From Thalassolituus sp. (lineage in GTDB: Bacteria > Pseudomonadota > Gammaproteobacteria > Pseudomonadales > Oceanobacteraceae), in NCBI GenBank assembly GCA_006212115.1, contig PDUK01000002.1:1-64000 (forward strand): a DNA stretch of 64,000 nt, given 5' to 3'. Under the pieces are notes generated by a model. The model did no database searches. It saw nothing but the letters and a program-made list of their open reading frames with translations, and was not told the origin of the DNA. The position numbers and the translations under genes are program-made. This document shows, piece by piece, positions 36,602 to 48,059 of this stretch; positions within the stretch are counted from its first letter, which is position 1, and each line of letters begins with the position of its first letter.

Positions 36602-37044
36602 AGTAACCCCGGGGTTTTATTATCTTTATTTTTTATGAGGCGAATACGCCATTCCCCATGCTAAAACCTTGCTGTAAACCAACTCAATAGCGTGGCCAGA
36701 TATACCATATGAATGCCGTTTTCTGGCCTGAATAGTCATTCGATGGAGTGATGACATTCTGCACACAAGTGGAACACACGCCCTATTAGGAAGCATAAAC
36801 ATTCTTTTAAACCTGGCCTGTGCCTCCAATGAACCCGTCACTACAACCGGAATTTATTTCGAGCCCGATACTCTTGCCGTCTCTGCACAATTTTTTAACC
36901 GGTGAAAGAAAAGCAGCAACCTCATGAAAAGTTTCGTCTTTTTTCTTATCTGCCAGAGATCTCAGAATCCATCGCCCCCTAAAGATCCGCCGATCTGGCC
37001 TGTCCGTTGCAGCACCATGAGGTAACGTGCGGGAAGGAGACTCT
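36602..37044. other. Spacer between the propeller gene and the ectoine operon
   Basis: About 440 bases without a credible gene: short frames here lack ribosome binding sites and domain character. It should contain divergent promoters for both neighbours, but I cannot point to a good -35/-10 pair. No tRNA or repeat seen. Confidence 0.5.
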
Positions 37045-38205
37045 ATGTCTGACATCTGGCAAGACACCATCGAATTCGGTAAAGAAGTTCGTCATCGACT
37101 TCACATGAGCCCGGAACTCAGCTGGGGAGAGCACAACACAGCCGAGACAATCCGAACGCTCCTGTCGGAACTAGGAATACGATGGAAATCCTGCACCCCA
37201 ACAGGCACTGTCGCCATCATCAACGAGAATGGCTCTACGCCAGCCATCGCCTTACGGGCCGATATTGATGCCCTCCCCATTCACGAAGCCACATCACTGG
37301 AGTGGGAATCGACCACCCCCGGTCACATGCACGCCTGCGGCCACGACGGACATACAGCCACTCTGCTCGCCGTTGCGAAATGGTTAAAATCACATGAGGA
37401 TCAACTGAAACGGCAGGTTATTCTGTTGTTCCAACCCGCAGAAGAAGGGGGTCACGGTGCCAGAGAAATGATCAAAGCCGGTGCCCTTGAAGGAGTCAGC
37501 GAGATATACGGCTGGCACAACTGGCCTGCCCTCCCTTACGGCACTATGGCGTGTCCCGATGATCTGGTGATGTGCGGCAATGGGACGTTCGACATTCAAC
37601 TGAATGGTAAAGGCGGCCACGCCAGTCAACCCGAAGCCTGCGATGACCTGGTACTCGCGGGCTCCGCAATCGTTGTCGCTCTGCAACAGATCGTAAGCCG
37701 ACAATTGCCGCCACAAACAAACGCCGTTATCAGTGTCACTGAATTTCACACTGGAAATGCGCCCACCGTCATGCCCGATGAAGCACGACTTTCCGGGAGC
37801 ATCAGAGTACCGGATGAAGACACCCGATCCCGCATTAATAAGGCAATATCCAACACAGTACAGCATACAGCTGCGGTGTATGGCATCGAATGTGAGGTAA
37901 CACACCATCCGCGCTATCAGGCAACCATCAACCACCCTGAACAAGCCAGAACAGCACGGGAAGCATGGACTGAGCAGCGTGGTCCTGAAGGGCTGCAACA
38001 TGGGAACCCGATGCCCGTTATGGCATCCGAAGACTTCAGTTATTACCTCAGATATATCCCCGGTGCATTCGCACTGATAGGAGGTGATGATGGTCAACGC
38101 TACCCTCACCCCTGCCATAGCCCTAAATACGATTTTAATGACAGGCTGATAGAGGATGTCTGTCGCTGGTTCTGCAGACTAACCGGAATGCGCACCCCAC
38201 CCTGA
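37045..38205 (+). CDS. doeB2: M20-family amidohydrolase, likely N-acetyl-diaminobutyrate deacetylase (DoeB2 type)
   Basis: Metal-dependent deacylase of the M20/aminoacylase group. Metal-site motifs are GHMHACGHDGHTATLL near residue 96, QPAEEGGHGAREMI near residue 134 and a late SEDFSYYL near residue 329. In this operon the expected substrate is N-alpha-acetyl-L-2,4-diaminobutyrate, formed by ectoine hydrolase. The usual DoeB is an AstE/AspA-like protein; this fold is different, so the assignment rests on context and on the existence of M20-type DoeB2 proteins. The ATG at 37045 has a GGAAGGAG site five bases upstream; a GTG at 37027 is less likely. 386 residues. Confidence 0.75.
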   Translation: MSDIWQDTIEFGKEVRHRLHMSPELSWGEHNTAETIRTLLSELGIRWKSCTPTGTVAIINENGSTPAIALRADIDALPIHEATSLEWESTTPGHMHACGHDGHTATLLAVAKWLKSHEDQLKRQVILLFQPAEEGGHGAREMIKAGALEGVSEIYGWHNWPALPYGTMACPDDLVMCGNGTFDIQLNGKGGHASQPEACDDLVLAGSAIVVALQQIVSRQLPPQTNAVISVTEFHTGNAPTVMPDEARLSGSIRVPDEDTRSRINKAISNTVQHTAAVYGIECEVTHHPRYQATINHPEQARTAREAWTEQRGPEGLQHGNPMPVMASEDFSYYLRYIPGAFALIGGDDGQRYPHPCHSPKYDFNDRLIEDVCRWFCRLTGMRTPP

Positions 38206-38252
38206 AATTTTCTTCTGATATGAATATTTTTAATTAATCAGAGGAAATATCT

Positions 38253-39527
38253 ATGACTATTTTCGAACAACGCGAATCCAATATTCGCGCGTACAGCCGT
38301 GTCTATCCGGTAACATTTAAATCTGCAAAAAATGCTCGCCAGACCGATGAAAATGGAAAGGTGTATATCGACTTTTTTGCCGGTGCCGGTGTGCTTAACT
38401 TTGGCCACAACAATGCCAATATGATTGCTGCGATGATTGACTATATGCAGAACGATGGCGTGCTTCACAGCCTCGATATGCAGACGAAAGCGAAGGCGGA
38501 GTTTATGCAGACCTTTGAGGAGGTCATTCTTAAGCCGCGCAGCATGCCTCATAAAATCCAGTTTATGGGACCAACCGGAACCAACGCAGTAGAGGCAGCC
38601 ATGAAGCTTGCACGCCGCGCAACGGGTCGACAAGAGATTCTCGCCTTCAGCAAAGGATTTCATGGCATGACACTGGGGGCACTGGCAGCAACCGCGAATG
38701 CGTATTTCCGTAATGCAGCGGGAGTGCCGCTGAATCATGTACGTCATGAAGCATTTGGTTGTTCAACTCCGTGTGCTGGCTGTAACCAAGGGTGTGGACT
38801 GGAAAATCTTGATCATATCCGAGCACGCTACAAAGACCCCTCTTCCGGGCTGGAGGCACCCGCTGCTATTTTATTGGAAACCATTCAGGCAGAAGGTGGG
38901 GTCAACGTTGCCAGCAAGCAATGGCTGCAAGGCATTGCTGCTCTGGCAAAAGAACTTGGCGCACTATTAATCGTCGATGAAATTCAGGTTGGCTGCGGTC
39001 GAACTGGCTCGTATTTTAGTTTCGACGATATGGGTATTTCACCTGATATCGTCTGTATGGCAAAAGGCATTGGTGGCGTGGGTACGCCTATGGCGATGAA
39101 TCTGGTTCACCCGGATATCGATAAGCTCTGGTCGCCGGGAGAACATACCGGAACCTTCCGAGGCCAGAACCTTTCGTTTGTCGCGGGTAAAGTGGCGCTC
39201 GACTATTTCCGACAAGACGACCTGATGGAAGACGTTAAGAAAAAACACGATGTCGTTGAACAACACCTGATGCCGTTACTGCACGCGGATAAATCTCTGC
39301 AATTGCGTGGCAAAGGATTAATCTTCGGACTCGACATGGGAGACGGCGAACGCGCCGCAGCGGTCGTTTCCGAATGCTTTAACAAAGGACTGATTATCGC
39401 AGCCTGCGGAACCGGAGGGCGTGTTCTCAAAATCATTCCGCCATTGACCATTCCTGTCAGTGATCTTATCGAAGGCCTCGATACATTGATCAGCGCCATC
39501 AACAGCGTTATGGAGGAAGCAGCATGA
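38253..39527 (+). CDS. doeD: Diaminobutyrate transaminase DoeD (class III, EctB-like)
   Basis: PLP transaminase expected to convert L-2,4-diaminobutyrate to aspartate semialdehyde. It closely resembles EctB (DFFAGAGVLNFGHNN near 41, GPTGTNAVEAAMKLARR near 106, LIVDEIQVGCGRTGS near 239, PLP lysine K271 in CMAKGIGG). Its operon with ectoine hydrolase favours a breakdown role over ectoine synthesis; ectA and ectC are absent here. Unusual: cysteines 170, 174, 177 and 181 form C-X3-C-X2-C-X3-C in a loop where EctB proteins, from memory, have none. 424 residues; AGAGGAA site. Confidence 0.82.
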   Translation: MTIFEQRESNIRAYSRVYPVTFKSAKNARQTDENGKVYIDFFAGAGVLNFGHNNANMIAAMIDYMQNDGVLHSLDMQTKAKAEFMQTFEEVILKPRSMPHKIQFMGPTGTNAVEAAMKLARRATGRQEILAFSKGFHGMTLGALAATANAYFRNAAGVPLNHVRHEAFGCSTPCAGCNQGCGLENLDHIRARYKDPSSGLEAPAAILLETIQAEGGVNVASKQWLQGIAALAKELGALLIVDEIQVGCGRTGSYFSFDDMGISPDIVCMAKGIGGVGTPMAMNLVHPDIDKLWSPGEHTGTFRGQNLSFVAGKVALDYFRQDDLMEDVKKKHDVVEQHLMPLLHADKSLQLRGKGLIFGLDMGDGERAAAVVSECFNKGLIIAACGTGGRVLKIIPPLTIPVSDLIEGLDTLISAINSVMEEAA

Positions 39528-40825
39528 TTGAACGCGATGATATGACTTTCCCACATTCTGAATACGTACGCCGGATCGAAGAATTGCGCGCCCGTATTGA
39601 GGAACGCCACCTGGACGCCGTGGTCATTTCCGATCCGGAAAATATCATGTACCTCACCGACTACCAGACAACGGGTTACAGCTTCTTTCAGGCCTTGGTA
39701 GTCCCCTTAGAAAAAGAACCTTTTATGATCACCCGAGCGCTCGAGGAGTCCAATGTTATTGCCCGGACCTGGGTCGATCTGACCCGTCCATACCCGGATA
39801 CCGGTGATGCCATGCAGATGCTGGTCGATGCGTTGCGTGAATTTGGTCTCGCCAATAAGCGTATCGGCTACGAACGCAACAGCTATTTCTTTCCCGCCTA
39901 CCATCAGGATGTGATTCATACCTCACTGAAAGACGGCAAACTCATGGACTGTTTCGGTATCGTCGAAGAAGGTCGTGTGTGTAAATCAGCCGTTGAAATT
40001 GAATTAATGAAACGTGCGGCTAAAGCGACAGAGGCGGGAATGGCCGCCGGGATCGAGGCCTGTCGCGCAGGCGTCAGTGAAAATGAAATTGGCGCAGCAA
40101 TCAGCGCAGGTATGTTTGCGGCTGGCGGAGAGGTCCCCGCGGTGATGCCGTACGTGACTTCCGGACCTCGTACCATGATTGGTCATGCCACCTGGGAAGG
40201 TCGCATCGTACAGCCGAATGAACACGTATTTCTTGAGGTGGGTGGCTGCTACCGTCGCTATCACACCGCGATGATGCGTACGGTCATGTTAGGAGAGCTG
40301 ACGGATTCCATGTATCAGGCACAAGAGACCATGAAACGTGCGTTAGATGCCGTACACACTATGGTTCAGCCAGGCATGACGGTATCGGATGTCGATAATC
40401 TGGTACGTAATATTATTTCTGACAACTCGGTCGGTGCCCGCCTTATAACCCGCTCAGGCTATTCCATTGGGATCGCCTTCCCACCAAGTTGGGACGAGGG
40501 TTATATCGTCAGCCTGAAACAGGGTGAAGGAACCGTATTAAAAGAAGGCATGACCTTCCATCTTATTCCATGGATGTGGGGCATTGACGGCGATAAAACC
40601 TGTGGTATTTCCGACACGATTTACGTCACGGACGAAGGCTGTAAATCCTTCTTCAACATGGAGCGGGATTTCACCGTCAAACCCGATCAAGGAGTGACAA
40701 AAAGTGATGACAGCGCTGCTTGTATCGACCTAGATAGCGCACGCAGTAAAAGCACAGCCAGCCAAACGTCGCCGGACACCGCCAAGGTATCCGGTAAAAA
40801 ACAAAAAGCTGGCACAAGCGCCTGA
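39524..40825 (+). CDS. doeA: Ectoine hydrolase DoeA (M24-like fold)
   Basis: Opens the ectoine ring to N-alpha-acetyl-diaminobutyrate. The protein has the creatinase/aminopeptidase-P two-domain layout (ISDPENIMYLTDYQTTGYSF near residue 35; pita-bread domain from about 155). The usual M24 metal ligands are lost: the first Asp is Glu (E238 in VFLEVGGCYRRYHTAM), the second is Ala, and the His/Glu motifs read GYSIGIAFPPSWDEGY and MTFHLIPWMWG, as expected for a metal-free DoeA/EutD enzyme. The ATG overlaps the doeD stop with GGAGG upstream. A hydrophilic tail of about 40 residues after 390 (Ser/Lys/Thr-rich) is longer than I expect for the family. Confidence 0.85.
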   Translation: MIERDDMTFPHSEYVRRIEELRARIEERHLDAVVISDPENIMYLTDYQTTGYSFFQALVVPLEKEPFMITRALEESNVIARTWVDLTRPYPDTGDAMQMLVDALREFGLANKRIGYERNSYFFPAYHQDVIHTSLKDGKLMDCFGIVEEGRVCKSAVEIELMKRAAKATEAGMAAGIEACRAGVSENEIGAAISAGMFAAGGEVPAVMPYVTSGPRTMIGHATWEGRIVQPNEHVFLEVGGCYRRYHTAMMRTVMLGELTDSMYQAQETMKRALDAVHTMVQPGMTVSDVDNLVRNIISDNSVGARLITRSGYSIGIAFPPSWDEGYIVSLKQGEGTVLKEGMTFHLIPWMWGIDGDKTCGISDTIYVTDEGCKSFFNMERDFTVKPDQGVTKSDDSAACIDLDSARSKSTASQTSPDTAKVSGKKQKAGTSA

Positions 40826-40835
40826 GGAGATCACT

Positions 40836-42194
40836 ATGCTGTCACCTATAAACCCAACAACGGGAGTACCCCTTCCAGAGGCCTATTCGCTGACCGACTC
40901 TGAAGCAGAAAGCATTATTAATAAAGCCAACATGGCGTTTCCAGCGTGGAAAGCGCTGGCTATTTCTCAACGTGCAATATTGCTGAAAAAGGTCGCTCAA
41001 GGCTTACGACTTCAACAAAGTCGTTTAGCCGAATTGATGGCTGAAGAAATGGGAAAACCTCTTCGCGAAGGACTGGCAGAAGTTGAGAAGTCCGCTTTTT
41101 GTGCAGAATACTACGCCGACCAGGCTGAAACTTTTTTATCATCCGAAGCACTCCCATCGGATGCCCGGGAAAGCTATGTCTGCCACCAGCCACTGGGCAC
41201 CGTGCTTGGTATCCTCCCCTGGAACGCACCTGTGTGGCTTGCGCTGCGATTCCTGGCACCGGCACTGATGGCAGGCAATACCTGCGTAATGAAACCCGAC
41301 CCGAATGTGCCAGCCACGGGCGCATTACTGACGGAAATATTTCAGTCGATACTGCCTGCTGGAGTCATGGAAAACCTGCCCATCACCACAGATATGGTAG
41401 GGGCCGCAATTGATCATGCTGCGATTAAAGCGGTGTCTTTCACGGGCTCCAGCGCGGCAGGTCAACAGGTCGCTGCGCGAGCAGCGGCCGGTCTTAAACC
41501 TGCAGTACTGGAGTTAGGAGGCTCTGACCCTTGCATCGTTCTTGCCGATGCGGATATTGAAAAAGCCTGCGATGTCATCACACTCTCGCGCATAATCAAC
41601 GCCGGGCAGTCCTGTATTGCGGCGAAGCGGATTATCATAGAAGAACGTATCTACGATACCGTCGTAGCCGCATTAAAAGCACGTTTCGATGCCCTGACGC
41701 TAGGTAATCCTTCAGAGTTGAATGAGGCCATTGGGCCGCTTGCCCGTGAAGATTTACGCAAGCAACTTCATGGGCAGGTTATGCGCTCAGTTGAAATGGG
41801 AGCTACCTGTATTACGGGTGGGGAAATTCCGTCAACCGACGGATTTTATTATCCCCCCACTTTACTGGGTGATGTTTCACCGGACATGGCTGTATTCTCG
41901 GAAGAGACATTTGGTCCGGTATTGGCACTCTGCAAAGCCACCGACTTTGATCATGCCTTGGCACTGGCAAACCAAACCGAATACGGTCTGGGCTCCAGTA
42001 TCTGGACAACTAATGAGGTGTTTTCCAAACGCGCGGCATTAGAGTTGAACGCTGGGCAGGTAGCCATTAATGGCATTGTCAAAACCGACCCACGCCTTCC
42101 TAGTGGAGGCATAGGAAAATCCGGTTACGGGCGCGAGCTAGGCCCACATGGTATTCGCGAATTCGTGAATATCAAACAGGTCTGGGCTGCCTGA
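40836..42194 (+). CDS. doeC: NAD(P)-dependent aldehyde dehydrogenase DoeC (aspartate-semialdehyde dehydrogenase)
   Basis: Expected to oxidise aspartate semialdehyde to aspartate, the last step of ectoine catabolism. The ALDH motifs are present: LGILPWNAPVWLALRFLAPA near residue 129, the glycine motif FTGSSAAGQ near 203, LELGGSDPCIVLADAD near 227 and the catalytic cysteine in NAGQSCIAAKR near 261. 452 residues. GAGGAGAT site, 10 bases after doeA. Succinate-semialdehyde dehydrogenase is the closest alternative by family. Confidence 0.82.
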   Translation: MLSPINPTTGVPLPEAYSLTDSEAESIINKANMAFPAWKALAISQRAILLKKVAQGLRLQQSRLAELMAEEMGKPLREGLAEVEKSAFCAEYYADQAETFLSSEALPSDARESYVCHQPLGTVLGILPWNAPVWLALRFLAPALMAGNTCVMKPDPNVPATGALLTEIFQSILPAGVMENLPITTDMVGAAIDHAAIKAVSFTGSSAAGQQVAARAAAGLKPAVLELGGSDPCIVLADADIEKACDVITLSRIINAGQSCIAAKRIIIEERIYDTVVAALKARFDALTLGNPSELNEAIGPLAREDLRKQLHGQVMRSVEMGATCITGGEIPSTDGFYYPPTLLGDVSPDMAVFSEETFGPVLALCKATDFDHALALANQTEYGLGSSIWTTNEVFSKRAALELNAGQVAINGIVKTDPRLPSGGIGKSGYGRELGPHGIREFVNIKQVWAA

Positions 42195-42216
42195 GCAGAT
42201 CTCCATCCAAACAAAA

Positions 42217-42238
42217 ACCGGGCACTGCCCGGTCGTTT
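42217..42238 (+). terminator. Terminator of the doe operon
   Basis: ACCGGGC (42217-42223), loop ACT, GCCCGGT (42227-42233), preceded by an A-run and followed by CGTTT. A compact GC stem 23 bases after the doeC stop; the T-run is short. Confidence 0.7.
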
Positions 42239-42280
42239 GAAGATCGGAAAGGTTACTGACCGGTGATTGCTCGGGATCGA

Positions 42281-42379
42281 AGGCTCGGAATTGAAAGCTC
42301 GGGGCGTGCGCAGCATGGATGCTGCGCCCGAGCCTACAAGGATGTATTCACGGCGTCCCCGGGATTCAATACCGAGCCT
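42281..42379. repeat. Nested palindromes in the doeC/ggpPS convergent spacer
   Basis: AGGCTCGGAATTGAA (42281-42295) and TTCAATACCGAGCCT (42365-42379) are reverse complements with one mismatch. Inside lies a second hairpin: 42297-42316 pairs with 42319-42333 as a 15-bp stem (GCTCGGG and CGCAGCAT parts) with a five-base bulge and a two-base loop. On the minus strand this inner hairpin is followed by TTTCAATT, so it can act as the ggpPS terminator. Confidence 0.7.
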
Positions 42380-42408
42380 CGCCCGGTAAACTCTCTATCA
42401 ATATGCGC

Positions 42409-44691
42409 TCAAGCTACAGACGTCAGCCCTGCACGATCGCCTTTGCCATTTTTACGGGCGCTAGCGGCTACTTCGGATAAAAATTCTTTTCCCCAGTAGT
42501 CAATATCATAATAACTGACCACATCGTACGCCTCGGCCATACGTGCAGCCGCATCATCAGGGTGGATAGAAAGAGCAAAATAACATGTCTCCGCCATTTC
42601 CGCGGGATCGTGTGGGTTACACAGTACCGCGCCTTTCACTTCGGCGGCTGCGCCGGCAAATTCCGACAGAACAAGTACCCCTTTACCCGAGGTTTGCCCC
42701 TGAGTCGCAACGTATTCTTTAGCGACCAGATTCAGACCATCGCGCAATGGTGTAATCCACATTACATCCGCCATAGCGTAGTAGGCGACCAGTTCATCAA
42801 ACGGCACCGCGCGGAAGAAGAATTGCACCGGCGTCCAGCCAACCTGTGCGTATTTACCATTGATTCGCCCTACCGCCTGCTCGATTTCGCTTTGTAGCTC
42901 ATCGTACACCGTCATCTCTTTTGCAGCCGGAACGCAGACAGTCACCAGAGTCACTTTCCCGTGAAGCTCAGGATGTTCTTCTAGTAACCGTTCAAATGCG
43001 TCCAGTTTGGCGGGGATCCCTTTGGTGTAGTCCAAGCGCTCTACTGACAGAACCAGTTTCACACCCTGAAGTTCATCACGTAACTCTTCCATACGCTGCT
43101 GAATATCTGGCTTGTCAAGTGCCGTCTCAACGCGATTAAGATCAAGTCCCACAGGATGAGCACCCAACGAAATAATTCGGTCGTTGACTTTAATTTGAGT
43201 CGTCATTTCATCAAGACCGACAGCACAGCCATACGTCAGGAAGCGCGGCGCACACCCCGTACGCTCGACCACGTCAAATGGCATAACGCCTTTGGCAACA
43301 TCGATAAAGTTTTCTGACTGGCGTGGAATATGGAAGCCAATGTAGTCGCATTGTAGCAAGCTACCGACGATTTCTTTTCTCCATGGCAGGACATTAAAGA
43401 CGTCTGCTGATGGGAAATAGGTGTGATGAAAGAATGCTATATTCACATCCGGGCGCAGCTCGCGAAGATAAGCAGGCACCATCCACAAGTTGTAATCATG
43501 CAGCCATACCGTCGCACCTTCCGCTGCCTCGCAGGCCGCCTGTTCTGCAAACTTTCGGTTTACCTCACAGAACACATTCCAGTGATCTTCTTCGAAGCTC
43601 GCTCTTTCCCAAAAGGTATGCAAAGTTGGCCAGAAGGCTTCTTTCGAGAAGCGTTTGTAAAAGATATCCACTTCCTCTTTCGATAAGCCCACACGAGCGG
43701 CGATCAGGTTGGGATATTTTTCTTTATCAACATCGGTATGTGTTTCGAATTTTTTCAAACTCTCATCTTTGATTGACCACGCGACCCAAGCGCCTTTTTT
43801 ACCGTCTTTAAAGAAGCTCGCTAAAGTCGGAATAATGCCGTTTGGAGAACGATGTGGGCGGCGTTTCATCTCGCCGTCTTCGATGTATTCTTCATACGGC
43901 AAACGATGATAGACAATCACCAGGTCGGAGCTACCGGGTGTCAGTTCATCCCGGCTTTCTGCATCAATACCTTCTGTACCCAAAAAGCCAAAGTGACTGA
44001 ATGCTTCGAGAATACCGCCTGCTCCGGGTGCGGAAGCATGATAAACACGCGCCCTCCCTTCTGTTGCTGAAAGGAGTCCTTTTTCGGATTCTCCGACACA
44101 CACGCCAATGAAATCATGCTCATACATAGAAAGGTCATTCAATGTATCGCCCGCCACCATGACATCAGATTTATCAATGTTCAGGTGTTCTATAAGAGCT
44201 GTGAGCGTCGAGCCTTTATTGACATTACGCGGCAGAAAGTCGAGATATAAATCAGCAGAATACAGAACGTCACAGTTCAGCGATTCACCGATTTTTTCAA
44301 TTTCTTCGCGATGCTTTTCCATCACATCCGGCGCGACAAAATACGAACAGCGACGCTCTTGTGGTACATCCTGACGCACAAGACCTTCGATGTGTTCTAC
44401 CGCGGCATGAATCGTGTACTCACCCGGCCATTTATCATCAATACGGGACTGAACCTCGACCACCGCCTGTAAGTTCTCGCCATCCACAACCGTACAGCCG
44501 ACATCACTGATAATGTAGTCCGGCTGGGGGATGGTCGGGTCTGCTAATAAAGGCATGACGGACTCAAGTCCGCGCCCGGTGACAAAAATGAGATCAATAT
44601 CAGGATGGGCAGCGATCAGCTGATAGAGCTGCTGGCGCTGTTCAGAAGAACCACCAAGAAATGTACCGTCGAGGTCTGTTGCAAGTAACAT
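42409..44691 (-). CDS. ggpPS: Glucosylglycerol-phosphate phosphatase/synthase fusion (GgpPS type)
   Basis: Two-domain enzyme. Residues about 1-240 are a HAD phosphatase (MLLATDLDGTFLGGSSEQR, with VMVAGDTLNDLSMYEHDFIG near 180). Residues about 265-745 are a GT20 synthase (LVIVYHRLPYEEY, FFHHTYFPSADVFNVLPW near 455, LSVERLDYTKGIPAKLDAF near 550, PLRDGLNLVAKEYVATQ near 650). This phosphatase-first order is known from GgpPS proteins such as that of Stenotrophomonas rhizophila; trehalose OtsA/OtsB fusions are the alternative, but the neighbouring GH13_18 gene favours glucosylglycerol. The ATG at 44691 follows a GGAG; a GTG at 44712 is possible. 760 residues. Confidence 0.82.
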   Translation of the reverse strand: MLLATDLDGTFLGGSSEQRQQLYQLIAAHPDIDLIFVTGRGLESVMPLLADPTIPQPDYIISDVGCTVVDGENLQAVVEVQSRIDDKWPGEYTIHAAVEHIEGLVRQDVPQERRCSYFVAPDVMEKHREEIEKIGESLNCDVLYSADLYLDFLPRNVNKGSTLTALIEHLNIDKSDVMVAGDTLNDLSMYEHDFIGVCVGESEKGLLSATEGRARVYHASAPGAGGILEAFSHFGFLGTEGIDAESRDELTPGSSDLVIVYHRLPYEEYIEDGEMKRRPHRSPNGIIPTLASFFKDGKKGAWVAWSIKDESLKKFETHTDVDKEKYPNLIAARVGLSKEEVDIFYKRFSKEAFWPTLHTFWERASFEEDHWNVFCEVNRKFAEQAACEAAEGATVWLHDYNLWMVPAYLRELRPDVNIAFFHHTYFPSADVFNVLPWRKEIVGSLLQCDYIGFHIPRQSENFIDVAKGVMPFDVVERTGCAPRFLTYGCAVGLDEMTTQIKVNDRIISLGAHPVGLDLNRVETALDKPDIQQRMEELRDELQGVKLVLSVERLDYTKGIPAKLDAFERLLEEHPELHGKVTLVTVCVPAAKEMTVYDELQSEIEQAVGRINGKYAQVGWTPVQFFFRAVPFDELVAYYAMADVMWITPLRDGLNLVAKEYVATQGQTSGKGVLVLSEFAGAAAEVKGAVLCNPHDPAEMAETCYFALSIHPDDAAARMAEAYDVVSYYDIDYWGKEFLSEVAASARKNGKGDRAGLTSVA

Positions 44692-44874
44692 AATTTTCTC
44701 CGCTGTCCGCACGCTGACATTTCAACTGAAATACATTTTGTGTTGACTGCAGCGCGGGTTAATTAACAACCAGTGTGCGACCGCAATTATGGAGATACTA
44801 CGATGTACCGCCGGGTCAGGGCGGCTGGTATCATCGAGCGATTGTAGAAGTACAATCAGAGGCAGCGATGCTTT

Positions 44875-46149
44875 TCAGCCTGAAGCTGCCTGAGACGGTG
44901 TCGTTTCCTGCTCGTCAAAATGCTCACTTTCATCAGGATGCATTTCTAACGCAGTAGGCGTCGTTCTTACCATAGGTACGAATTGGGCAGGATCGCCTGT
45001 CGTCTCGTCCTTAGTTCTCTGATGCATTTTCCATACCGCCACCAGAAACAATGTGCCCTGAACTGCGGCAAAGTACACAGGCAGTGCACTTGCGCCGGTC
45101 ATAGCCATCAGTTGCCCACTCAGGGCAGGACCAATTGCCGCACCAATACCGTGCACTAATAGCAAAGCACTGCCCCCAGCGAGAATGTCGTCGTTGTCCA
45201 GATGATCAATCAGGTGTGCGACCGCTACCGGGTAAACCGCAAACGCCAAACCTCCGTAGAGTGCGATAGAGGCATACAACAATTCGACGCTGGCGAATGA
45301 TGCTGGAACAATCAGCAGCGCCGAAATCGCCGCAAATGCAACGATACCGGCGAGTACCCGACGTCGGTCAAACCGGTCGGACAAGCGTCCGATAGGATAC
45401 TGCAGCAATGCCCCGCCTATGATGCCCGCCGTTACGAAGGTCGCAATCTGACCAGTGGACAATCCGATGCGAGACGCATACAACGCACTCATCCCCCAGA
45501 AGGCCCCCATGGCAAGACCGGATAGCAGAGCGGCGCTGATTGCCACAGGCGCTATGCGCCATAAAAAACGTACCCCAAGGCGCTTCACCTGCTGCACCTC
45601 AGGCGGCCCGAAACGAGTCCCTGCCACCGGCACCAGAGACAGCGTGACCAGCATCGACGCTAATGCAAATAGTAGGTAACTGGACGCTGGCGCTAACGAA
45701 ATAAACTGTTGTGATAATGCCAGAGCCCCAAGATTCACCACCATGTACACGGCAAATACTTGTCCACGATGTTGAGCGGGCGTGGTGGAATTAAGCCAAC
45801 TCTCGATGACGGTATAGAGGATCACCAATGCCGTTCCCGTCAGCACGCGCAGTCCCCCCCACGCCCAGGCCGTGGCGAACACATCGTGCAACATTACCGA
45901 AACCGAGCCGACCGCAGCACACATTGCGAACGTTCGGATGTGCCCTACCCTGCGAATAAGTGGTAAGGCGAGAAACGTACCCACGAAAAAGCCGACAAAA
46001 TAACCGGACATAATGAAGCCCATTGCCTGGTCGGTGAAGGCCTCTTCGCTGCCACGCACCGCCAGTAGGGTATTCAATAGCCCGCTGCCGAGTAGTAATA
46101 ATGTCACGCCCGCCAGCAACGAGAATATCGGACGAATTTGTCTGATCAT
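44875..46149 (-). CDS. MFS transporter (YcaD-like)
   Basis: Twelve predicted membrane segments with the MFS loop motif between segments 2 and 3 (LPLIRRVGHIRTF) and its repeat (IGRLSDRFDRRRVLAG near residue 255). The C-terminus is an acidic tail of about 40 residues. It lies between the GH13_18 phosphorylase and the ggpPS fusion on the same strand, so transport of glucosylglycerol or a related compound is a reasonable inference, but substrate cannot be read from the sequence. 424 residues. Confidence 0.75.
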   Translation of the reverse strand: MIRQIRPIFSLLAGVTLLLLGSGLLNTLLAVRGSEEAFTDQAMGFIMSGYFVGFFVGTFLALPLIRRVGHIRTFAMCAAVGSVSVMLHDVFATAWAWGGLRVLTGTALVILYTVIESWLNSTTPAQHRGQVFAVYMVVNLGALALSQQFISLAPASSYLLFALASMLVTLSLVPVAGTRFGPPEVQQVKRLGVRFLWRIAPVAISAALLSGLAMGAFWGMSALYASRIGLSTGQIATFVTAGIIGGALLQYPIGRLSDRFDRRRVLAGIVAFAAISALLIVPASFASVELLYASIALYGGLAFAVYPVAVAHLIDHLDNDDILAGGSALLLVHGIGAAIGPALSGQLMAMTGASALPVYFAAVQGTLFLVAVWKMHQRTKDETTGDPAQFVPMVRTTPTALEMHPDESEHFDEQETTPSQAASG

Positions 46150-46184
46150 TTGAAATCTAAACCTTGAACAACGACTGTTTCAGA

Positions 46185-47627
46185 TCAACAAGTGTAGGAT
46201 ATTTCTTCCAGCGTTTCGGTATCGAGATAAGTAAGTACCGAAGTATTGAAGTTCAGATCAACAAATACCTCGCAATAATACTCACCATGTCGCCATGCCA
46301 TGTGCACACTGCTGTCGTTGCTTGAATGCAGTTCAAAGTGACCGTCAAACGCTGGGTAGTTGGAGCGGAACTCCATTAACGTAAACAGACGCTTAACCAC
46401 TGGGGAAGACAACGATTCTTTGGCTTCATCCAGACTGTAATAATGTCGGTTAATATCTCGCAGCTCACCGGTTTCAGCCATCAGGTCTTCATCGTTCACT
46501 CCTGCCAGCAATCCAACGTAATACACCTGCGGAATACCCGGTGTAAAAAACTGAATCGCGCGAGCAGCAATGTAAGCATCATCATTCTGCATCAAGGCAT
46601 CGTAAAAGGTGCAGGTGATCTGATAAATCGCCCCAACGCTATGAATGTTAGCTGCAGACTTACGCATAATTGGATCGGCACTGCGCTGCTGTAAGTTATC
46701 AATCAAGGCTTTAATTCGTTCGTCAGGCAGGACACCCTCAACATCCGGAATGCATATACCATCGTGAGTATCCAGCACGGTGACCATGTTGCGTGGGCAC
46801 ATACGTAGCCAATGTTTCAGATACACGCTGTTCGCATCCAATAGAGAAAACAGGACCAGCGGAGGCAAGGCGAACCCATACGGGTGCATATCACGGCGAC
46901 TGATGGCGTATTGATAACTGCTGTGGTCGTGGACCTCAGGCAAGCAACGCGCCCCGTGCTTTTGTGCGACGGAATTCACCCAGTCGAGATTACGGTAAAC
47001 ATCGGGCTCCACCAGAAAACAACTGCTGCCAACCCGTTTGGTGGTATAACCAAATGCATCGAGACGAAATAATTTAACGCCTTTAGATGCGAGAAAGGCA
47101 ATGTACTCTTCCATCAGCTCGTAGGTCGCATCGGACTCGTAATTCAGATCAATCTGTTGCTCGGTGAACGTACACCAGACGCGCTCTTTTGAACCATCGG
47201 CGAAGGTAATCTCGCGAAACGGCTCTTTTTCTTTACGGATATGAATCTTCGCCATGTCGTCGGGGGAGAACTCGCCCATTTTATCGACGCGTACAAACAG
47301 ATCTGCGTATTTCGACTGGTCTTTATGCTGAAGGAAGTCTTTGAACTCCTCAGACTCGTCAGAGATGTGATTTACAGTCAGGTCAGCGCACACATCGAAC
47401 TGGGCAGCAATGCGCTCTATATCGGCCCAGTTACCATACGCAGAGTCGACTTCCTTGTGTGTCAGCGGTGAAAATCCGGCGTCGGCGTTCGACGGGTAAA
47501 AAGGCAGAATGTGAACGCCACCCACAGCGGTGTCGAGGTACTGCTCCATAAAGCCCGCAAGGTCTTTGAGGTCTTTACCGATCCGGTCGGGATAAGCGAT
47601 AAGTTGTACTGCGTTTCTCAGTGACAT
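46185..47627 (-). CDS. GH13_18 phosphorylase, likely glucosylglycerol phosphorylase
   Basis: Sucrose-phosphorylase-family enzyme. It keeps the family catalytic set: nucleophile D190 (LFRLDAFGYTTK), acid/base E231 (CLPEVHDHSS) and transition-state aspartate D289 (LDTHDGICIPD); VNHISDESEEF near residue 85 is also typical. Members of this subfamily include sucrose, sucrose-6-phosphate, glucosylglycerate and 2-O-alpha-glucosylglycerol phosphorylases; the last is known from Marinobacter adhaerens. Presence with ggpPS favours glucosylglycerol. 480 residues; strong GAGGAGGG site. First gene of the three-gene operon. Confidence 0.8.
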   Translation of the reverse strand: MSLRNAVQLIAYPDRIGKDLKDLAGFMEQYLDTAVGGVHILPFYPSNADAGFSPLTHKEVDSAYGNWADIERIAAQFDVCADLTVNHISDESEEFKDFLQHKDQSKYADLFVRVDKMGEFSPDDMAKIHIRKEKEPFREITFADGSKERVWCTFTEQQIDLNYESDATYELMEEYIAFLASKGVKLFRLDAFGYTTKRVGSSCFLVEPDVYRNLDWVNSVAQKHGARCLPEVHDHSSYQYAISRRDMHPYGFALPPLVLFSLLDANSVYLKHWLRMCPRNMVTVLDTHDGICIPDVEGVLPDERIKALIDNLQQRSADPIMRKSAANIHSVGAIYQITCTFYDALMQNDDAYIAARAIQFFTPGIPQVYYVGLLAGVNDEDLMAETGELRDINRHYYSLDEAKESLSSPVVKRLFTLMEFRSNYPAFDGHFELHSSNDSSVHMAWRHGEYYCEVFVDLNFNTSVLTYLDTETLEEISYTC

Positions 47628-48059
47628 AGTGCCCTCCTCTGTTATTACCCTAACGCAAACCCATGACGATTCACTTTTACGACTGGTATGGGCTCGACGT
47701 TCTGGTCATTCTGTGATGGTCGAGGACACAAAAGGTTCATGCTTTTTCCTGAACCAAGCCAGCACCCATGCGGGTATATCGGTTGTGGTATGGGAGGGGG
47801 TGAGCTGCGCTATCCAATTGACCTGCAAGGGATTTTCGGGTATTTTCGCGCCCAACGAAAAAGGCAAATGTTATGTAGAGTCAGTTGCGTATGGCACTGG
47901 CCAAGATCTGATTGACAGGTCTTCTATCTTCATACAGACGGGCAGTGGCACACATGAACTTCATAGTCTCACTGCTCAGAGGTCTGCATCTGAGGACACC
48001 CCTTGACCCCGGACTTCTGCCTGCACTGAAAGAGTTTCTGAATTAAAGGCGATTCCCTA
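47628..48059. other. Divergent spacer between the phosphorylase gene and mqo
   Basis: About 430 bases. A 125-codon plus-strand frame (47629-48006) starts right at the divergent start codon but has no domain character and I do not accept it. Visible signals are an inverted repeat GGTTCA/TGAACC (47734-47739, 47750-47755) and a TTGACA at 47912-47917 that lacks a good -10. It should hold promoters for both directions. Confidence 0.5.
47734..47755. promoter_or_regulatory. Short inverted repeat upstream of the glucosylglycerol operon
   Basis: GGTTCA (47734-47739), 10 bases, TGAACC (47750-47755), about 110 bases upstream of the phosphorylase start. The arm length is short, so this is only a candidate regulator site. 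Confidence 0.25.

Follow-up and report, generated by a model that had tools for sequence, protein, structure and literature searches.

The window analysed here, a stretch of 64,000 nucleotides, is contig C144:1-64000 of a 3.28 Mb Thalassolituus metagenome-assembled genome (MAG; completeness 84.5%, contamination 4.9%). It carries two operons that face each other. The genes doeB2-doeD-doeA-doeC on the plus strand, for degradation of the compatible solute ectoine, converge on ggp-MFS-ggpPS on the minus strand, for synthesis and use of glucosylglycerol (GG). A first-pass annotation had described this arrangement, and it holds: all seven genes are open frames, and doeB2, doeA and the GG synthase score above curated cut-offs. 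What is new here is that the pairing of doe and GG genes recurs; both halves were already known separately.

Genes of the two operons

The first gene of the ectoine operon, doeB2 (37045..38205, plus strand), encodes an N-acetyl-diaminobutanoate deacetylase (NF038260, 625 bits, cut-off 550). Its open reading frame spans 37027-38205, and the likely start is the ATG at 37045, preceded by GGAAGGAG at 37032. It is followed on the same strand by doeD (38253..39527), encoding diaminobutyrate transaminase (subfamily PRK09264, 590 bits, cut-off 438), and by doeA (39524..40825), encoding an ectoine hydrolase of the DoeA_2 type (NF038259 ‘ectoine_DoeA_2’, 792 bits, cut-off 575) whose best solved relative is the ectoine hydrolase DoeA 6twk. 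The last gene, doeC (40836..42194), encodes an aldehyde dehydrogenase, presumed to be aspartate-semialdehyde dehydrogenase. As it has a family match only (Aldedh, PF00171) and stays below every equivalog cut-off shown (best 459 bits vs 730), its name rests on its position in doeBDAC. We also considered whether doeD could be EctB of ectoine synthesis. This was ruled out, as it reaches 514 bits against the EctB equivalog cut-off of 552, and contig C185 has another gene, 45% identical to DoeD, immediately ahead of ectC. Both ectoine synthase (contig C185) and NtrC (contig C189) are encoded in the same assembly.

The order doeB-doeD-doeA-doeC on one strand is that of doeBDAC in Methylotuvimicrobium alcaliphilum 20Z and Methylophaga, where the same four genes occur (PMC7192451; here and below, statements about cited papers refer to their accessible text). 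The methylotroph cluster and that of the window are alike in having no transporter and no asnC/enuR regulator. They differ in that, for the methylotrophs, the accessible text mentions neither GG nor sigma54 control.

On the minus strand, ggpPS (42409..44712; by eye, ATG 44691 is the likelier start) encodes a fused GG-phosphate phosphatase and synthase, with an S6PP-type HAD phosphatase (PF05116) at the N terminus and a TIGR02398 synthase (753 bits, cut-off 569) at the C terminus. The middle gene (44875..46149, minus strand) encodes an MFS transporter, for which GG is a putative substrate; it matches Pfam MFS_1 (PF07690) only, and the nearest NCBIfam model, PRK03633, stays below its cut-off. 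A scan of named genomes for GgpPS confirmed 447 loci, and all counts out of 80 loci given here refer to the best 80 of these 447. In 47 of the 80, the gene immediately upstream of ggpPS on its strand encodes an MFS protein. Of the complete make-and-use module for GG proposed by the first-pass annotation, ggpPS and ggp are supported by sequence, while the transporter is known as an MFS_1 member only.

The product of ggp (46185..47627, minus strand), a GH13_18 enzyme, is on its sequence a glucosylglycerol phosphorylase (GGP). The nearest solved chains include 7xdr (873 bits) and 7xdq (871 bits), both labelled as glucosylglycerol phosphorylase, and the protein is 76.6% identical to the GGP of Marinobacter salinexigens (MsGGP), of which it retains 16 of the 16 pocket residues checked (residues from PMC11787520). 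Chain 9j1u also gives 873 bits and is labelled sucrose phosphorylase, but its first 102 residues are identical to MsGGP; the next sucrose phosphorylase gives 461 bits. The NCBIfam name for the protein is sucrose phosphorylase (TIGR03852, 503 bits vs cut-off 334). Although this cut-off is passed, we rejected the name, as it is outweighed by the solved relatives and pocket residues that favour GGP.

The Marinobacter ggpPS-ggp genes (PMC10873239, PMC11787520) resemble those of the window in the fused GgpPS, the GH13_18 GGP and the same pocket residues. In Marinobacter, ggpPS lies directly upstream of ggp, whereas the window has doe next to GG genes that run ggp-MFS-ggpPS (PMC10873239). Unlike in the window, no DoeA was found in the Marinobacter isolates; the word ‘sigma’ is absent from the accessible text, and promoters were not analysed there. 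The order ggp-MFS-ggpPS is seen also in Aestuariicella (L108, L109), and in Thalassolituus genome G006 the MFS gene and ggpPS are separated by about 2.7 kb of other DNA (L074, 5643-8360).

Between the convergent operons lies a terminator-like hairpin (42216..42234, minus strand; 0.4 expected in shuffles). As the operons converge on it, the junction itself implies no shared control. At the other end, ggp and mqo are divergent, and window positions 47628-48059 hold a block conserved in 8 genomes; within this gap a sigma70-like TTGACC-N17-TATTTT for mqo was seen by eye at 47818. Elsewhere in the MAG (G000), contigs C163 (L077) and C213 (L078) carry near-copies of doe and ggp genes, 74-97% identical at the protein level, in which the doeB2, ggpPS and ggp frames are broken. 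We did not take them for a second, paralogous doe/ggp system in this genome. The near-copies probably come from a co-binned relative (or from assembly noise), and the MAG is thus probably mixed.

Linkage of doe and GG genes in other genomes

A comparison of gene neighbourhoods had been set beforehand as a test of the proposed coupling, and it came out in its favour: the convergent doe/GG pair is present in five of nine Thalassolituus genomes (G000, G001, G003, G004, G008), and linkage recurs in three other families. Within the genus, G006 carries both sets of genes 0.8 Mb apart on one contig, and in G002 they are split between contigs. They are on separate contigs in G005 as well, where a bacterioferritin gene adjoins the ggpPS end; in G007, alone of the nine genomes compared, doe was not found. 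On the far side of ggp, its junction with mqo is intact in each of the eight genomes that show it, the unlinked G002, G006 and G007 among them, and linkage in the genus alone is therefore ordinary. The ggpPS genes of L101, L102 and L103 (records labelled Amphritea, Moraxellaceae and Magnetococcales) fall among those of Thalassolituus, at 81% identity, a placement that would reflect either transfer or misbinning.

Beyond the genus, complete doeBDAC lies within about 10 kb of ggpPS in 12 of the best 80 loci: four from Thalassolituus, four from Zhongshania, three from the Ketobacter genus g61 and one from an Alcanivoracaceae MAG. In the four Zhongshania loci doeBDAC is divergent from ggpPS. The Ketobacter loci (L121, L143, L171) have doeBDAC-ggp-ggpPS on one strand, and the Alcanivoracaceae locus (L124) has doeBDAC-MFS-ggpPS, also on one strand. 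The pair is thus found in four arrangements (convergent, divergent and two co-directional) across four families. Among 390 genomes of the order, DoeA_2 is present in 58, GG-phosphate synthase in 39 and both in 26. The distance between doe and GG genes is 1.6-4.2 kb in 22 of these 26 (the match in G348 is cut by a contig end, and the pair is shown by L184 and L227); G006, G072, G239 and G274 are unlinked. Six further genomes with both pathways among the 55 nearest relatives (G002, G005, G024, G028, G029, G032) are all unlinked, giving a total of 22 linked among 32. In a class sample of 369, both families occur only in the window's genome. Proximity of doe to ectC was found in none of 14 genomes, two of which are uninformative, the doe contig being short.

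Could the two operons be chance neighbours, kept by ordinary synteny in a young genus and with no functional coupling? The better conservation of ggp-mqo than of ggpPS-doeC within the genus would fit such an explanation, as would a convergent arrangement that shares a terminator only. It is hard to reconcile with the other orientations and gene contents seen in three other families with different flanks, and random placement within 4.2 kb has about a 0.2% chance per genome; we consider it very improbable. By our count of lineages, four of the eight with both genes are linked, a result that random placement would give with a probability of about 1e-9 if lineages are independent. In eight linked loci from the other three lineages, no genes outside the block are common to different lineages, and the Thalassolituus flanking genes that were searched never adjoin the doe-GG blocks of other lineages. 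The pairing is recurrent, beyond ordinary synteny.

The arrangement groups separate in the doe tree (33 rows) as well as in the ggpPS tree (71 rows). The doe genes of Thalassolituus group with those of Ketobacter (support 100), but this is not so for the ggpPS genes of the two. By the well-supported branches, linkage must have been gained or lost at least four times in the doe tree and at least twice in the ggpPS tree, and several origins of the linkage are therefore likely.

A recurrent pairing might also mean a general solute-turnover island, in which doe and ggp serve jointly when osmolarity drops or to recycle carbon, ggpPS is present since its product is turned over, and nitrogen plays no special part. 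Both ggp and doe are indeed degradative, and ggp-ggpPS pairs are common without doe (ggp lies within 700 bases in 26 of the 80 GgpPS loci). Rising salt inhibits MsGGP (PMC10873239), and in methylotrophs ectoine is cleaved during adaptation to osmolarity changes (PMC7192451). However, the linked blocks L118 and L124 hold ggpPS without a neighbouring ggp. As several linked blocks are of this kind, it is GG synthesis, not GG breakdown, that is the constant partner of doe. Moreover, the -24/-12 elements and NtrC-like boxes described below are not expected in a turnover island, which we regard as a possible but on the whole unlikely explanation.

Candidate sigma54 promoter elements and NtrC-like boxes

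Upstream regions, measured from the start of the tblastn match (start codons not proven), were scored for sigma54-type -24/-12 elements (GG-N10-GC, 11 consensus positions, consensus TGGCACnnTTnTTGC) and for NtrC-like boxes (12 positions, consensus TGCACCAnnnTGGTGCA). Both consensus sequences agree with those described for E. coli, in whose sigma54/NtrC nitrogen regulon the -24/-12 elements and NtrC boxes are as scored here (PMC8743547). Many of the GG elements found here have C at -26, unlike the sites of that regulon.

The doe operon of the window has a conserved predicted sigma54-dependent promoter element, TGGCCTGTCCGTTGCA (36996..37011, plus strand), with GG-N10-GC and nine of the 11 consensus positions, located 34-49 bases ahead of the doeB2 ATG. 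When seven Thalassolituus doeB2 upstream regions are aligned (mean column identity 54%), the pattern TGG-N8-TTGCA is invariant in all seven, and its distance to the start varies. This pattern occurs once in the window against 3.5 occurrences expected by chance, so that the evidence lies in position and conservation, not in number. Scores of at least 9/11 within 300 bases of doe are reached in 7/7 Thalassolituus and 4/4 Ketobacter, compared with 1/28 doe-only genomes (28 of 32 scored; in four the doeB2 start was not found or lay off the fetched stretch) and 4.2% of 708 control regions. They are reached also in two of the three genomes G220, G258 and G348, the G258 element lying at 399.

A search by expectation maximization (EM), run with no pattern set in advance on 24 genomes that have both pathways, gave the doe motif GaAcaacCt.TGC with a log-likelihood ratio (LLR) of 119 against 55-60 in five shuffles; the shuffles, here and for GG below, preserved blocks of three bases, were few in number and used fewer EM starts than the runs on real sequence. 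Its matches in Thalassolituus G002 and G006, in Ketobacter, in G220 and in G348 are mostly the -24/-12 sites, while in the window, G003 and G004 the motif picked other places. Doe-only genomes gave a weaker motif (LLR 81 vs 56-62 shuffled). In several Zhongshania a TGGCAC-type match at the doeB2 start is directed to ggpPS, which may be chance. The gap between bprop and doeB2 in the window also holds an inverted repeat, GGCCAGA...TCTGGCC (36694-36728), partly kept in G001, G004 and G008.

For the regions before the first gene of the GG operon (59 regions, 57 distinct), EM returned cGGcACaaatcCTGCa, again GG-N10-GC, with LLR 252 against 73-76 in three shuffles. We then trained the GG motif without the tested lineage and compared it with 729 control regions. 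In this leave-out test the element was found in 12/12 Marinobacter (p up to 0.015), 8/8 Zhongshania (p up to 0.018), 2/2 distinct Alcanivorax regions (of three; p 0.004), 2/3 Halieaceae, G239 and L120. It was weaker in Aestuariicella (p 0.02-0.04) and Spongiibacter (0.04), and was not found in Pseudomonas (0/4), genus g2 (0/4), L123 or a second Halieaceae group (0/3). By plain consensus, scores of at least 9 occur in 10/12 Zhongshania, 4/4 Ketobacter, 2/2 Alcanivorax, 2/3 Halieaceae and 2/2 Aestuariicella, both of the latter 11/11; in L108/L109 the site lies 47-48 bases ahead of the ggp match. We did not count the Ketobacter ggpPS match TGGTGCATTTTTTGCT as a clear promoter, as it overlaps an NtrC-like box and failed the leave-out model. 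No motif common to the doe and ggp upstream regions of the window was seen by eye. In Zhongshania L112, L114 and L115 a conserved gene lies directly before ggp; that of L114 encodes an AraC-type regulator that contains a DJ-1/PfpI domain and may act as a separate control on GG breakdown.

NtrC-like boxes scoring at least 10/12 are present in the GG regions of 8/14 distinct Marinobacter (15 rows), 3/4 Ketobacter, 3/12 Zhongshania and 1/3 Halieaceae, and in none of 2 Alcanivorax, 2 Aestuariicella and 7 Thalassolituus. Such boxes occur in 3.4% of control regions and also in 2/6 Pseudomonas GG regions. Upstream of doe they are found in 3/7 Thalassolituus, 1/4 Ketobacter and 1/28 doe-only genomes. 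A score of 11 is reached in 0/708 control regions, but in 15/2000 random 450-base windows of these loci. In G220 (L179) a single box of 11/12 lies between doe-directed and ggpPS-directed -24/-12 elements, 72 and 77 bases away; G258 and G348 have a similar but wider layout, with boxes of 10 and 9. As a positive control, glnA (found in 11/13 genomes) has sigma54 scores of at least 9 in 11/11 and NtrC boxes of 8-11. NtrC itself is present in 12/13 genomes, the window's included.

The uneven distribution of these boxes bears on another explanation, in which the pairing is functional and sigma54-dependent but is activated by another enhancer-binding protein, responding to carbon, surface or stress cues. 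The boxes are weak or absent in Thalassolituus doe regions and in most Zhongshania, Alcanivorax and Aestuariicella GG regions, where -24/-12 elements are nonetheless present, and a sigma54 promoter with a FleQ-like site is described at H. elongata ectC (PMC3187862). We hold this explanation to be distinctly unlikely, since Marinobacter, Ketobacter and G220 have NtrC-like boxes of 11-12/12 and no local activator gene is common to the loci.

Nitrogen supply and a possible exchange of solutes

Cells grown in salt keep a large pool of nitrogen in the form of ectoine, and marine bacteria that degrade oil frequently face nitrogen shortage. The best explanation that we can offer, although our confidence in it is evenly divided, is that the locus is one instance of a recurrent, nitrogen-responsive module for ectoine-to-GG exchange. 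On nitrogen limitation, phosphorylated NtrC would activate sigma54-dependent transcription of doe. DoeA, DoeB2, DoeD and DoeC would then convert internal ectoine through acetyl-diaminobutyrate and diaminobutyrate to aspartate, returning its nitrogen, and nitrogen-free GG made by GgpPS would replace ectoine, so that the cell would regain nitrogen without losing turgor. NtrC and sigma54 would, in several lineages, switch on GG synthesis too, and GGP may later phosphorolyse GG when it is no longer needed. We infer this regulation from the promoter-like elements; candidate sites are present on both arms in Ketobacter, G220, G258 and G348, and on the GG side only in most Zhongshania.

Several observations weigh against this exchange. 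The two pathways are unlinked in 10 of the 32 genomes that have both. In Thalassolituus the predicted control is on the doe side only: the ggp operon of the window is without a -24/-12 element, none is found in the seven Thalassolituus GG regions (0/7, best scores 0-7 of 11), and the leave-out model finds none (0/6). GG synthesis there would thus need to be raised via another promoter. Even on the doe side, the NtrC box of the window is weak (9/12, a score that 23% of controls reach). The leave-out GG element was also not found in Ketobacter (0/4). Doe scores of 9 are reached in only 1/9 of the other Zhongshania and in 1/7 of the other genomes with both pathways, a set that includes the linked G139. 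By plain consensus, Marinobacter GG sites score at least 9 in only 2/15 rows and at least 8 in 12/15, as do 17.5% of controls, often with C at -26. Furthermore, 2/6 Pseudomonas GG regions also score 9, with NtrC scores of 10-11.

The nitrogen-dependent solute switch proposed by the first-pass annotation is thus supported in part, by the sigma54- and NtrC-type elements, but the window's genus has such an element on the doe side only; the coupling of doe and GG is backed by recurrent pairing and weakened by the several genomes that keep both pathways apart. We regard the switch as plausible, with sequence support that is one-sided in the window's genus.

Ectoine-catabolic clusters under EnuR/AsnC or NtrYX control follow the same pathway logic as the window, and NtrYX, an NtrC-family system, is a positive regulator of ectoine catabolism in Ruegeria pomeroyi; these differ in that they are from Alphaproteobacteria, in large uptake-catabolism operons without GG genes (PMC5924519). 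For halophiles, a sigma54 promoter has been reported at ectC, and solutes are reported to be affected by nitrogen supply (PMC3187862). In the open-access literature we found no compatible-solute exchange among sigma54/NtrC regulon targets, and no paper that treats the pairing of doe with GG genes or the control of GG by sigma54/NtrC; PMC5668215 contains both terms, but for different organisms.

In its full form, the proposal is that the module, present in four arrangements, was probably assembled several times in marine Gammaproteobacteria, that a sigma54 and NtrC switch acts on both ectoine dismantling and GG synthesis, and that the cell stores nitrogen in its osmolyte pool. We put this forward tentatively, our belief in it falling a little short of even. 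In Marinobacter, GG was not inducible by salt or 45 C, and the named media held peptone and yeast extract; the authors list nitrogen starvation among known solute-inducing conditions (PMC10873239). With such media, nitrogen was ample in the GG induction trials. If the ectoine-to-GG exchange is true, osmolyte choice would be under nitrogen control in these bacteria. This would explain the absence of salt-induced GG in Marinobacter salinexigens on peptone media, and nitrogen limitation in salt would be the condition expected to induce GG in Marinobacter.

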